This document shows, piece after piece, positions 3,001 to 6,877 of a stretch of DNA of 6,877 nt. The notes under the pieces were generated by a model. It was not told the origin of the DNA, made no database searches, and worked only from the letters and a program-made list of their open reading frames with translations. This stretch comes from a bacterium (GTDB taxonomy: Bacteria > DYJV01 > JALVYZ01): assembly GCA_027037705.1 (NCBI GenBank), contig JALVYZ010000375.1, forward strand, positions 1-6,877, read 5' to 3'. The translations under genes and the position numbers were made by a program. Within the stretch, counting starts at the first letter, position 1, and the number at the start of each line of letters is the position of its first letter.

Positions 3001-4824
3001 TTACATTATTGCATCTTCCATTTCCATTAATTTTTCAAATTTAATATCTAATCCTAACACTCCTACCATTTCACCTCTATCATTCCATATTGGATGTGAT
3101 ACTGTTAAACATAAATCTCCTGTAATTTTAGAGGTATATAAATTAGATACATAAAAACCTCCTTTTTTAACTACCTCTATAAACCATCTTCTATTTGAAA
3201 GGTTTTCTCTTACCCAACTTAAAGCATATTTATTAGTCTCATCTGCCTGAGTGATATTTTTTGTAATCTGATTACCTTCCATATCAATAATATAAGCAAA
3301 TTGTATAAATGGATTTTGATATACAAGTTCTTGAAGTTCTTTCTCAGCTTCTGGGATGTTAAGATTTTTAATACAATCTTTTTCAACAAATTCTTTAACA
3401 ATTTTCTTTGCAATTTGCTTTGCTTTCTCTTTAATTCTTCCAAATTCAGAAATAAAGTATTCTGGCAAGTACTTCCTTGCAAGTTTTTCCATTTCTTCTG
3501 ATGAGAGTGCTGTTGTTCTACCTTCGTCATACATCTTTTTAACAACATGATAAATCTTTTGAATACCTGGATGACTTTTATCTACTTTTTTATCTCCCTG
3601 CAAACCTAAATATGAATTTACCCAATGAGCGATTCCAGCTGCTCCAGATTTATCATTAATGGCTACGGTTGGCGGCCTATTTAAAATTCTTCTTGTATCA
3701 AAAATATTGTAAATCTCTTCATTTTTTAATAAACCATCTGCATGGATTCCTGCTCTTGTAACATTAAACTCAGAACCAACAAATGGATAATTTGATGGGA
3801 TATGAAATCCAATTTCGTTTTCAAAATAATTTTTAAGATCTGTAATTACTGTTGTATCAATCCCATTATGATGACCTATTAAACTTATATAATCAATTAT
3901 TAATGCTTCTAATGGCGGATTTCCAGTTCTTTCACCAAATCCAAAAATAGTCCCATTTGCAGCAGCACAACCATAAAGCCATGCTGTTACAGCATTGATT
4001 AATACTTTATGAAAATCATTATGCCCATGCCATTCAAGATATTCAGATGGAACCCCAGCCTCATCAATAAACACTCTTACTAACTTTGGAACACTTCTTG
4101 GCAACTTTGCATTTGGGAAAGGCACTCCAAATCCCATTGTATCGCAAAGTCTTATTAAAATTGGCATTTTTGCATCTTCAGAAATTTTCATTAATTTTTG
4201 GGCAAATGGTATTACAAAACCATAAATATCTGCTCTTGTTATATCTTCAAAATGGCATCTTGGCACAATCCCATGTTCAAGTGAAGCTTCGATAATTTTT
4301 AAATAATCTTTTAATACTTCTTTTCTATTCTTTTTTAATTTTAAAAATATATGATAATCAGAAACAGATGTTAATATTCCAGTTTCTTTTAGTCCCATTT
4401 CTTTTACTAATTCAAAATCATTAACATTTGCTCTAATCCAGCCAGTAATAATTGGGAATTCATAATTTCTTTCAAGACATAGTTCAACTGCTCTTTTGTC
4501 TTTATCTGAATACAAAAAAAACTCACATTTTCTTATTACTCCATTTGGTCCTCCAAGTTTATGGAAAAAATCAAAAATTGTAACAATCTGCTCTGGAGTA
4601 TAAGGAGGTCTTGCCTGCTGTCCATCTCTAAATGTTGTATCTGTTATAAAAATTTCATCTGGCATTGATGGAATTACAAAAGTATTTTCAAATTCTACTC
4701 TTGGAATTTCTACATAAGGAAAAAATTCTCTAAATAAGTTCGGTCTATCAGTATTAATCAGTGGGTACTTCTCATCAGCTAATTTTAAATATTTACTGAT
4801 GTTAATTATCTTTCTTTTTGGCAT
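3001..4824 (-). CDS. LeuA/homocitrate/Re-citrate synthase-like acyl-CoA condensing enzyme with C-terminal PDC/Cache-like sensor domain
   Basis: A 607-residue cytoplasmic enzyme of the HMGL-like TIM-barrel superfamily, which condenses an acyl-CoA (usually acetyl-CoA) with a 2-oxo acid. Visible motifs: DTTFRDGQQ (62-70) at the start of the barrel, the metal-binding HGHND (266-270), GFGERTGN (295-302) and GIHADG (359-364). The region RILNRPPTVAINDKSGAAG (379-397) lies where LeuA has its GKHSG segment. A helical linker (about 456-500) leads to a domain (about 497-600) with the hallmarks of a PDC/Cache sensor: RRWF, then GGFYVSNLYTSKITGD, LTVSHPIWNDRG and VGVLGLDI. No membrane segment or signal peptide is seen, so this sensor is cytoplasmic. 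The usual LeuA regulatory domain is absent. The acceptor (oxaloacetate, 2-oxoglutarate, 2-oxoisovalerate or pyruvate) cannot be assigned, so I give no symbol; a Re-citrate or homocitrate synthase-like role is my leading guess. The start is fixed by AGGAGG 4 bases upstream. Confidence 0.88.
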   Translation of the reverse strand: MPKRKIINISKYLKLADEKYPLINTDRPNLFREFFPYVEIPRVEFENTFVIPSMPDEIFITDTTFRDGQQARPPYTPEQIVTIFDFFHKLGGPNGVIRKCEFFLYSDKDKRAVELCLERNYEFPIITGWIRANVNDFELVKEMGLKETGILTSVSDYHIFLKLKKNRKEVLKDYLKIIEASLEHGIVPRCHFEDITRADIYGFVIPFAQKLMKISEDAKMPILIRLCDTMGFGVPFPNAKLPRSVPKLVRVFIDEAGVPSEYLEWHGHNDFHKVLINAVTAWLYGCAAANGTIFGFGERTGNPPLEALIIDYISLIGHHNGIDTTVITDLKNYFENEIGFHIPSNYPFVGSEFNVTRAGIHADGLLKNEEIYNIFDTRRILNRPPTVAINDKSGAAGIAHWVNSYLGLQGDKKVDKSHPGIQKIYHVVKKMYDEGRTTALSSEEMEKLARKYLPEYFISEFGRIKEKAKQIAKKIVKEFVEKDCIKNLNIPEAEKELQELVYQNPFIQFAYIIDMEGNQITKNITQADETNKYALSWVRENLSNRRWFIEVVKKGGFYVSNLYTSKITGDLCLTVSHPIWNDRGEMVGVLGLDIKFEKLMEMEDAIM

Positions 4825-4901: not shown

Positions 4902-6877
4902 TTACTTTTGATTAATAACCTTTCTACATCTTTCACATATTTTATCTTTGTCTTCTAAAACAGAAATATCATATTGCCAGCATCTCTGACATTTTTCACC
5001 TTCAGCTTTTGAAACATTTACTTTAATTTCTTCTTCCATATCCTTATCTATTATAATATTAAGTTGAGAAACAATTAATATCATTTTTAAATCTTTTTCA
5101 TATTTTTTGTAAAATTCATAATCTTTCTCATTTTTTAAAATAACCTCTACCTTTGCATCAAGTGAATGTCCAATAACCTTATTTTTTCTCGCCTCTTCAA
5201 TATATTTTGTGACTGTTTCTTTAATCTCAACTAATCTTTCCCAGTTTTCATAAATTTCTTCATTATCAAATATCTCACTAATTTCTGGGAATAATTGAGT
5301 ATGTATGCTTTCATCTGTGTTTTTAAAATAACGCCATGCTTCATCTGCTGTAAAAGCCAGTACTGGAGCAAGTAATTTAAGCAAAGCATCAACTATGTAA
5401 TATATTGCTGTTTGAGAAGATCTCCTAACTTTTGAATCTTTTGCTTCACAATATATTCTATCTTTTAATGCGTCAAGATAGAAAGCACTTAAATCAACAA
5501 CGCAAAAATTATAAATTTTATGGTAAACTATGTGAAATTCATATTCATCATATCCTCTAATTACTCTTCTGATTAATTTATTTAATTTTGCAAGGATATA
5601 TTTGTCAATTTCTGTCATTTCTCCATATTTAACTTTATCTATTTCAAAATCAAAATCTTTTAAAACTCCAAGCATATATCTAATTGTATTTCTTATTCTT
5701 CTATAAGCTTCTACCACTCTTTTTAATATCTCTTGAGAGATTCTAATGTCATCTCTATAATCTTGAGCAGCAACCCACAACCTTAAAATCTCTGCTCCAT
5801 ATTTTTTTATAATTTCTTCAGGAGAGATAACATTTCCTGCTGATTTACTCATTTTTTTACCTTCGCCATCCACTACAAATCCATGAGTTAAAACTTCTTT
5901 ATATGGAGCTACATCTCTATTTGAAATAGAAATTAGTAATGAACTATGGAACCATCCTCTATGCTGATCAGACCCTTCAAGATACATATTTGTTGGGAAA
6001 CTTTGAGTTTCATTGTTTTCACATACAGCTGCCCAGGAACTTCCTGAATCAAACCAAACATCTAAGATATCTGTTTCTTTTTCAAATTCATTTCCACCAC
6101 ATTTACATTTAAATCCATCTGGTAAAAAATCTTTTACAGGTCTATTAAACCATGCGTCAGCGCCTTCTTTTGAAAAAATCTCATATACTTTGTCAAATAA
6201 TTCTTTTGTTGAAATAATTTCTCCACAATTTTTGCAATATAAAACAGTAATAGGCACTCCCCATGCTCTCTGACGAGATATACACCAATCTGGTCTATTT
6301 TCAATCATATTATATATTCTTTCTTGCCCCCAGGATGGTATCCATTTGACATCATTCTTTATTGCCTCAAGAGCTTTTTTTCTTAATTCATTTTTCTCCA
6401 TAGAAATAAACCACTGACTTGTAGCTCTAAAAATTATTGGCTTTTTGCATCTCCAACAGTGTGGATAAGAATGGATAAATTCATCTTCAAGAATTAATGC
6501 ATTTTTCTCTTTTAAAATTTCATTAACTTTTTTATTTGCTTCAAACACAAATAGACCTTCAAGTTCTTTAACTCTAACTTCTTCTGTAAATTTCCCATAA
6601 TCATCTACTGGATTCAATATTGGTAAATTATATTTTATTCCAATTATATAGTCCTCTTCACCATGACCAGGAGCAGTATGAACGCATCCTGTCCCTGCAT
6701 CTAAAGTAACATAATCAGCATTAATGATTATTGACTCCCTATCAATAAATGGATGTTGACATTTTATAAATTCTAAATCTTTGCCTTTAAAAGTGACTAA
6801 TTCTTTATAACCTTTAATTCCCCAGAAATGCATACAAGATTCAGATAAATCTTTTGCTAAAATATAAACACCATCTC
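4902..6877 (-). CDS. ileS: Isoleucyl-tRNA synthetase, 5' end cut by window edge
   Basis: Class I cytoplasmic enzyme that charges tRNA-Ile and edits misactivated valine. The 657 visible codons start inside the CP1 editing domain, with 14 of them before the first Met at 6833; that Met is internal and not the real start. Some 270-300 N-terminal residues, including the HIGH signature, should lie past the right edge, judging from the usual length of about 900-950. Seen, numbering from the Met at 6833: editing-domain GTGCVHTAPGHGEEDY (47-62), HCWRC (125-129), RPDWCISRQRAWGVP (180-194), DVWFDSGSSW (258-267), GSDQHRGWFHSSL (287-299), KMSKS (327-331), a helical anticodon-binding region, and a C-terminal zinc finger (C615, C618, C633, C636). 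The GSDQHRGWFHSSL segment and the C-terminal finger mark it as bacterial IleRS rather than ValRS or LeuRS. An additional CxxC...CxC set (C200, C203, C243, C245) is present. It is the first gene of the row, 77 bases before the synthase. Confidence 0.97.
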   Translation of the reverse strand, partial: DGVYILAKDLSESCMHFWGIKGYKELVTFKGKDLEFIKCQHPFIDRESIIINADYVTLDAGTGCVHTAPGHGEEDYIIGIKYNLPILNPVDDYGKFTEEVRVKELEGLFVFEANKKVNEILKEKNALILEDEFIHSYPHCWRCKKPIIFRATSQWFISMEKNELRKKALEAIKNDVKWIPSWGQERIYNMIENRPDWCISRQRAWGVPITVLYCKNCGEIISTKELFDKVYEIFSKEGADAWFNRPVKDFLPDGFKCKCGGNEFEKETDILDVWFDSGSSWAAVCENNETQSFPTNMYLEGSDQHRGWFHSSLLISISNRDVAPYKEVLTHGFVVDGEGKKMSKSAGNVISPEEIIKKYGAEILRLWVAAQDYRDDIRISQEILKRVVEAYRRIRNTIRYMLGVLKDFDFEIDKVKYGEMTEIDKYILAKLNKLIRRVIRGYDEYEFHIVYHKIYNFCVVDLSAFYLDALKDRIYCEAKDSKVRRSSQTAIYYIVDALLKLLAPVLAFTADEAWRYFKNTDESIHTQLFPEISEIFDNEEIYENWERLVEIKETVTKYIEEARKNKVIGHSLDAKVEVILKNEKDYEFYKKYEKDLKMILIVSQLNIIIDKDMEEEIKVNVSKAEGEKCQRCWQYDISVLEDKDKICERCRKVINQK

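Follow-up and report, generated by a model that had tools for sequence, protein, structure and literature searches.

Why would a cytoplasmic enzyme of the LeuA superfamily end in a sensor domain of the kind carried by chemoreceptors? The question is raised by a gene on the minus strand (3001..4824) of the window, by which we mean the whole stretch of 6,877 nucleotides of bacterial DNA analysed here; the gene, delimited by its open reading frame, encodes a protein of 607 residues. A sequence-only reading had described the product as a LeuA-type enzyme fused to a PDC/Cache-like domain and had suggested that this domain senses an amino acid or a carboxylate. Answering the question requires establishing whether the domain is what it seems, which reaction the enzyme catalyses, how widely the two parts occur together and what the domain may bind.

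Results

The protein opens with an HMGL-like catalytic barrel (residues 59-332, 3829..4650, minus strand; PF00682, E 5e-26), in which the motif FRDGQQ (65-70) and the HGHND core of WHGHNDF (265-271) were invariant across an alignment of 54 sequences. The barrel is followed by post-barrel subdomains and a linker (residues 333-455, 3460..3828, minus strand), as delimited by the predicted structure and by alignments to LeuA and HCS that extend to about residue 457, and then by the sensor domain (residues 463-602, 3019..3438, minus strand), encoded in the same open reading frame, as the sequence-only reading had it. In the Pfam search, PF22673 (MCP-like_PDC_1) matched residues 503-600 far beyond chance expectation, with 46.6 bits where the cut-off is 27 (E 5.4e-12), dCache_1 hit the same region slightly below its cut-off (E 8.7e-11), and LeuA_dimer (PF08502) gave no match anywhere in the protein at E values up to 1. 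Nearly all relatives (53 of 54) also matched PF22673, and a profile of 48 family members found Tlp3 (E 2e-11), KinD (4e-10), PctA (1e-7) and YkuI (9e-5) in the PDB.

The predicted structure agrees, with a mean pLDDT of 88 for the full protein and 91 for the Cache domain alone. As a fold search with the whole protein was filled by barrel structures, those of homocitrate synthase and isopropylmalate synthase (IPMS) at Z 30-34, the Cache domain was folded and searched separately; its best match was KinD (Z 16.8, 129 of 140 residues, 2.7 Å), and the other nearest solved structures were the sensor domains of WalK, Mlp24, DctB, Tlp3 (Z 14.0) and CitA, rather than a LeuA-type regulatory fold or another non-Cache fold. 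In the model, helices at residues 460-480 and 490-503 are followed by strands, corresponding to the long N-terminal helix and PAS-like sheet of Cache domains, and because these helices are part of the fold, we place the domain at about 463-602, wider than the span of 497-600 given earlier. The latter had been located correctly, at 3336-3025 on the minus strand, and the strings quoted from it, RRWF (545-548), GGFYVSNLYTSKITGD (555-570), LTVSHPIWNDRG (573-584) and VGVLGLDI (587-594), are all present in the translation. At the level of profile matches and modelled fold, these data show that the protein ends in a genuine Cache/PDC domain. The model has a single PDC unit at the end of the protein and not the double Cache of dCache_1AA. 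No membrane segment is indicated in the whole protein, the highest 19-residue average of hydropathy being 1.12, and the lack of a hydrophobic segment, already noted in the first reading, places the domain in the cytoplasm.

The identity of the enzyme is best approached through its orthologs. In a genome consisting of a single complete chromosome, the only strong match (L148) was 57.5% identical to our protein over residues 19-601, the Cache domain included. We take this ortholog to be SYN_02536, the Syntrophus aciditrophicus Re-citrate synthase, an identity that rests on the length of that chromosome and the mass of the protein. Its computed mass is 71,766 Da from the start giving 629 residues, and a Ser-linked Strep-tag raises this to 72,893 Da; Kim et al. 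reportedly described the purified, tagged S. aciditrophicus enzyme in 2013 as 4 x 72,892 Da, and the agreement supports our assignment. Re-citrate synthase replaces the usual citrate synthase in many anaerobes. S. aciditrophicus is among the organisms with a known, isolated Re-citrate synthase in a published account (PMC12016533). The usual enzyme, Si-citrate synthase (PF00285), was not found in the genome of the window or in its nearest relative, and a separate LeuA, above its cut-off, is encoded elsewhere in the window's genome. More broadly, PF00285 was absent from 33 of the 45 genomes with a Cache-bearing copy and present in 13 of 14 control genomes; it was present in 12 of the 45 versus 10 of 16 genomes with a Cache-less copy (Fisher p 0.016), a comparison to which we give no weight, as it ignores the kinship of the genomes, some of which are incomplete and one of which holds both forms of the enzyme.

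Gene order points in the same direction. Aconitase, isocitrate dehydrogenase or both lie directly downstream on the same strand in 18 relatives, an aconitase-type gene is directly next in the nearest relative (G001), and in three loci (L036, L037 and L042) the Re-citrate synthase gene heads a four-gene run with the large and small aconitase-type subunits and an NADP-isocitrate dehydrogenase, the last named by NCBIfam. Such neighbours suggest a pathway from citrate through 2-oxoglutarate to glutamate. Isocitrate dehydrogenase was not found in the window's own assembly (92.8% complete), where the monomeric type was also searched for; the only PF00180 protein there is of LeuB type, two PF00180 genes are present in the sister genome, and the missing enzyme is probably explained by a gap in the assembly. 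The window's genome (L147, L144) contains a second aconitase-type gene in addition to the Re-citrate synthase. Together, orthology and gene neighbourhood strongly support the predicted identity of the enzyme as a Re-citrate synthase.

The immediate surroundings in the window are of a different kind. Upstream lies ileS (4902-6833), and downstream an HTH-cupin regulator (2328-2966) is followed by a UvrD-type helicase reaching to 2315, ileS and the helicase being named from their translations. The regulator, an HTH (XRE) and cupin protein of PuuR type, shares the minus strand with the Re-citrate synthase gene and starts 34 bp past it; it was not seen as a frequent neighbour among the relatives' loci. 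The gene directly upstream in 57 related loci, about half of the relatives, encodes aspartyl-tRNA synthetase (named via the S. aciditrophicus neighbour), versus ileS in the window, and in 24 relatives a UvrD-type helicase faces the Re-citrate synthase gene from downstream.

Across 386 genomes, a sample mostly spread across families, the enzyme was present in 30. We collected 141 members in total: the Cache domain is present in 120 and absent from 16, and 5 could not be scored; other fusions of the HMGL-like and Cache domains, for which the first reading had proposed a search, are the rule, with 120 of the 136 scorable relatives. Among the carriers, by record name, are Desulfovibrio and further sulfate reducers, Syntrophales, Nitrospirae and Spirochaetes, as well as Lentisphaerae, Elusimicrobia, Omnitrophota and Armatimonadetes. 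In a tree built from the enzyme part, the 16 Cache-less members are scattered, and presence of the domain requires at least eight changes, two to three of them forced by starred branches; the tree was built with a quick method and has weak support inside, and the count is blind to gain versus loss. As all fused members share one point of junction and one domain family, the simplest reading of the sequences would be a single old fusion followed by repeated loss. The absence of the domain from 16 otherwise similar enzymes indicates that it is dispensable for catalysis.

Outside the enzyme family, a search of 290 genomes gave three chemoreceptor-type proteins as the closest carriers, all bearing the same pocket signature (see below). 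All three have a C-terminal Cache domain of the same subtype after the MCP signalling domain (L190, 412-1905; L191, 505-1917; L149, 1997-3868), and two of them, L190 and L191, appear soluble on visual inspection. Chemoreceptors with a C-terminal Cache domain past the signalling domain are consistent with sensing inside the cell, and intracellular Cache sensors on receptors seem to be little described.

The domain evolves fast, its median identity to the window protein being 39% versus 62% for the enzyme part, and within it a small set of positions stands out. The putative pocket signature R545-x-W547-F548 (3181..3192, minus strand) corresponds to PctA R126-x-W128-Y129, Y563 and S565 (3130..3138, minus strand) to PctA Y144 and D146, and D593 (3046..3048, minus strand) to PctA D173; R545 also aligns with KinD R131, the residue changed in the R131A structures 4jgq and 4jgr. 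In 70 non-redundant sequences (80% clustering), W547 and S565 were conserved in all 70, D593 in 69, F548 in 67 and R545 in 65, while site 563 was Y in 57 and F in 11. Among the 140 positions of the domain, their conservation ranks were 2 (W547), 3 (S565), 5 (D593), 7 (F548), 12 (R545) and 17 (Y563), and none of 100,000 random sets of six positions ranked as low. In PctA, D173 is central to the amino-acid motif and R126 bonds the carboxyl group of the ligand (PMC10104139). Of that motif (Y121, R126, W128, Y129, Y144, D173), our domain keeps R, W, Y144 and D and has F for Y129; the equivalent of Y121, residue 540, is variable and unconserved in the 70 sequences. Full membership in dCache_1AA was rejected on the single domain and the loss of Y121. 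Many Cache domains share the conserved R, W and D, whose conservation may partly be structural; the alignments suggest that a sensor-type pocket of R545, W547, F548, Y563, S565 and D593 has been kept.

Discussion

Our analyses indicate that the window encodes a Re-citrate synthase belonging to a widespread and conserved family of the same architecture, an identity and a distribution that go beyond what was first read from the sequence. We consider it probable, with room for doubt, that the C-terminal Cache domain serves this enzyme as an allosteric sensor of a small amino or carboxylic acid of the cytoplasm. The proposed course of events would be as follows. In an anaerobe without Si-citrate synthase, the enzyme would join acetyl-CoA and oxaloacetate to citrate with Re-type chemistry, and the citrate would feed the oxidative branch through isocitrate and 2-oxoglutarate to glutamate. 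The Cache domain would occupy the place of the feedback domain of IPMS and citramalate synthase, its position after the catalytic subdomains making it a natural binding site; an acid of this kind would bind in the predicted pocket, and its binding would alter activity via the helical linker and contacts between subunits. The allosteric role of the domain is our interpretation of this arrangement, and what binds, and in which direction activity then changes, are hypotheses. The first reading's suggestion that an amino acid or a carboxylate binds the domain and acts allosterically looks plausible from the sequence evidence.

As to the ligand, the superfamily offers a guide. Leucine, isoleucine and lysine inhibit IPMS, citramalate synthase and homocitrate synthase, each as the end product of the pathway concerned, and by analogy we propose glutamate, the end product and a possible feedback inhibitor, as the first candidate and 2-oxoglutarate as the second. 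The more specific scenario, in which a chemoreceptor-type Cache domain has moved into the cell as a glutamate/2-oxoglutarate feedback domain and sets the flux at what is, in many anaerobes, the only citrate synthase, is offered tentatively, and we put it at somewhat less than an even chance; if borne out, it would give the first demonstrated case of a Cache domain in direct control of a metabolic enzyme. A signal of another kind, reporting on energy or carbon (pyruvate, citrate, acetate or a nucleotide) and possibly activating, appears unlikely, if clearly worth keeping in mind: the nearest fold, KinD, was solved with pyruvate (4jgp), R545 aligns with R131 of that protein, and the Cache domains of CitA, DctB and KinD bind carboxylates. 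However, the near-invariant D593 aligns with the Asp of PctA that binds the amino group, and KinD has no Asp at that place, a difference that leans towards a ligand with an amino group. We also find it rather improbable that the domain is purely structural, helping to form dimers or tetramers with no ligand at all. Cache and PAS domains do often dimerise, and the 16 related enzymes that do without the domain have retained the gene; a structural role, however, fits poorly with pocket sites so much more conserved than the remainder of a fast-changing domain, and with the recurrence of the same signature in the C-terminal Cache domains of chemoreceptors.

Explanations that question the protein itself carry far less weight. 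That the enzyme is a different synthase of the superfamily, making homocitrate, citramalate or, as a second copy, isopropylmalate, seems to us very unlikely: the best curated models were indeed LEU1_arch, nifV and IPMS, but all of them scored far under their cut-offs, as did every named equivalog, a bona fide LeuA is encoded elsewhere in the genome, the neighbours in relatives are aconitase and isocitrate dehydrogenase, and the orthology is to a characterised Re-citrate synthase. An extracellular or membrane receptor might be suspected as Cache domains mostly are extracellular (PMC4822843), and an assembly error might have fused two genes; against the former stands the lack of any hydrophobic segment, and against the latter the recurrence of the fusion in independent assemblies, at 120 loci in all and in one complete chromosome among them, and we give either next to no credence.

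Compared with known systems, the enzyme class is not new, the window protein adds a further member to it, and its architecture is that of a characterised enzyme, the S. aciditrophicus Re-citrate synthase, from which we found no architectural difference. The Cache-less enzymes of the Clostridium kluyveri type (L005, L006, L110, L168-L178) end at about window residue 457, with no sensor domain, and their enzyme part is mostly 52-64% identical to ours (41-42% in L008 and L178). A second clade of Re-citrate synthases, from Heliomicrobium (HM1_2993), Clostridioides and Thermoanaerobacter, shares the reaction and the superfamily, but its identity to the enzymes of C. kluyveri and S. aciditrophicus is given as only about 28% (PMC12016533). 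The isopropylmalate, citramalate and homocitrate synthases have the same barrel and the same C-terminal regulatory position, with amino-acid end-product control in the known cases, but the IPMS-type synthases regulate through LeuA_dimer or RAM domains where our protein has Cache/PDC. On the sensor side, KinD, Tlp3 and PctA share the fold and most pocket residues with the window domain, whereas their Cache domains are extracellular, membrane-anchored and often double, and that of the window is single, cytoplasmic and attached to an enzyme. A parallel in layout is YkuI_C in Bacillus subtilis YkuI, likewise an intracellular C-terminal Cache domain past a barrel-fold, enzyme-type EAL domain; the partner there, however, is the c-di-GMP EAL of a signalling protein and here an enzyme of central metabolism.

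Cache domains typically lie between two membrane helices, YkuI_C and Diacid_rec being mainly intracellular, and a survey from 2016 gave only signal-transduction output domains as their partners, the SMP_2 family excepted (PMC4822843). Our findings add a metabolic enzyme to these partners. In the searchable literature, not all of it within reach, we found no paper on a Cache domain attached to a metabolic enzyme, and the literature searched gave no account of the regulation of Re-citrate synthase; databases probably already display the two domains side by side. Since forms with and without the domain exist in nature, they are easily compared, and the conserved sensor domain provides a direct and testable handle on the control of Re-citrate synthase, the enzyme by which many sulfate reducers, syntrophs and uncultured anaerobes enter the path to 2-oxoglutarate and glutamate. 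Probably, a small molecule of the cytoplasm turns this enzyme up or down through its Cache module.
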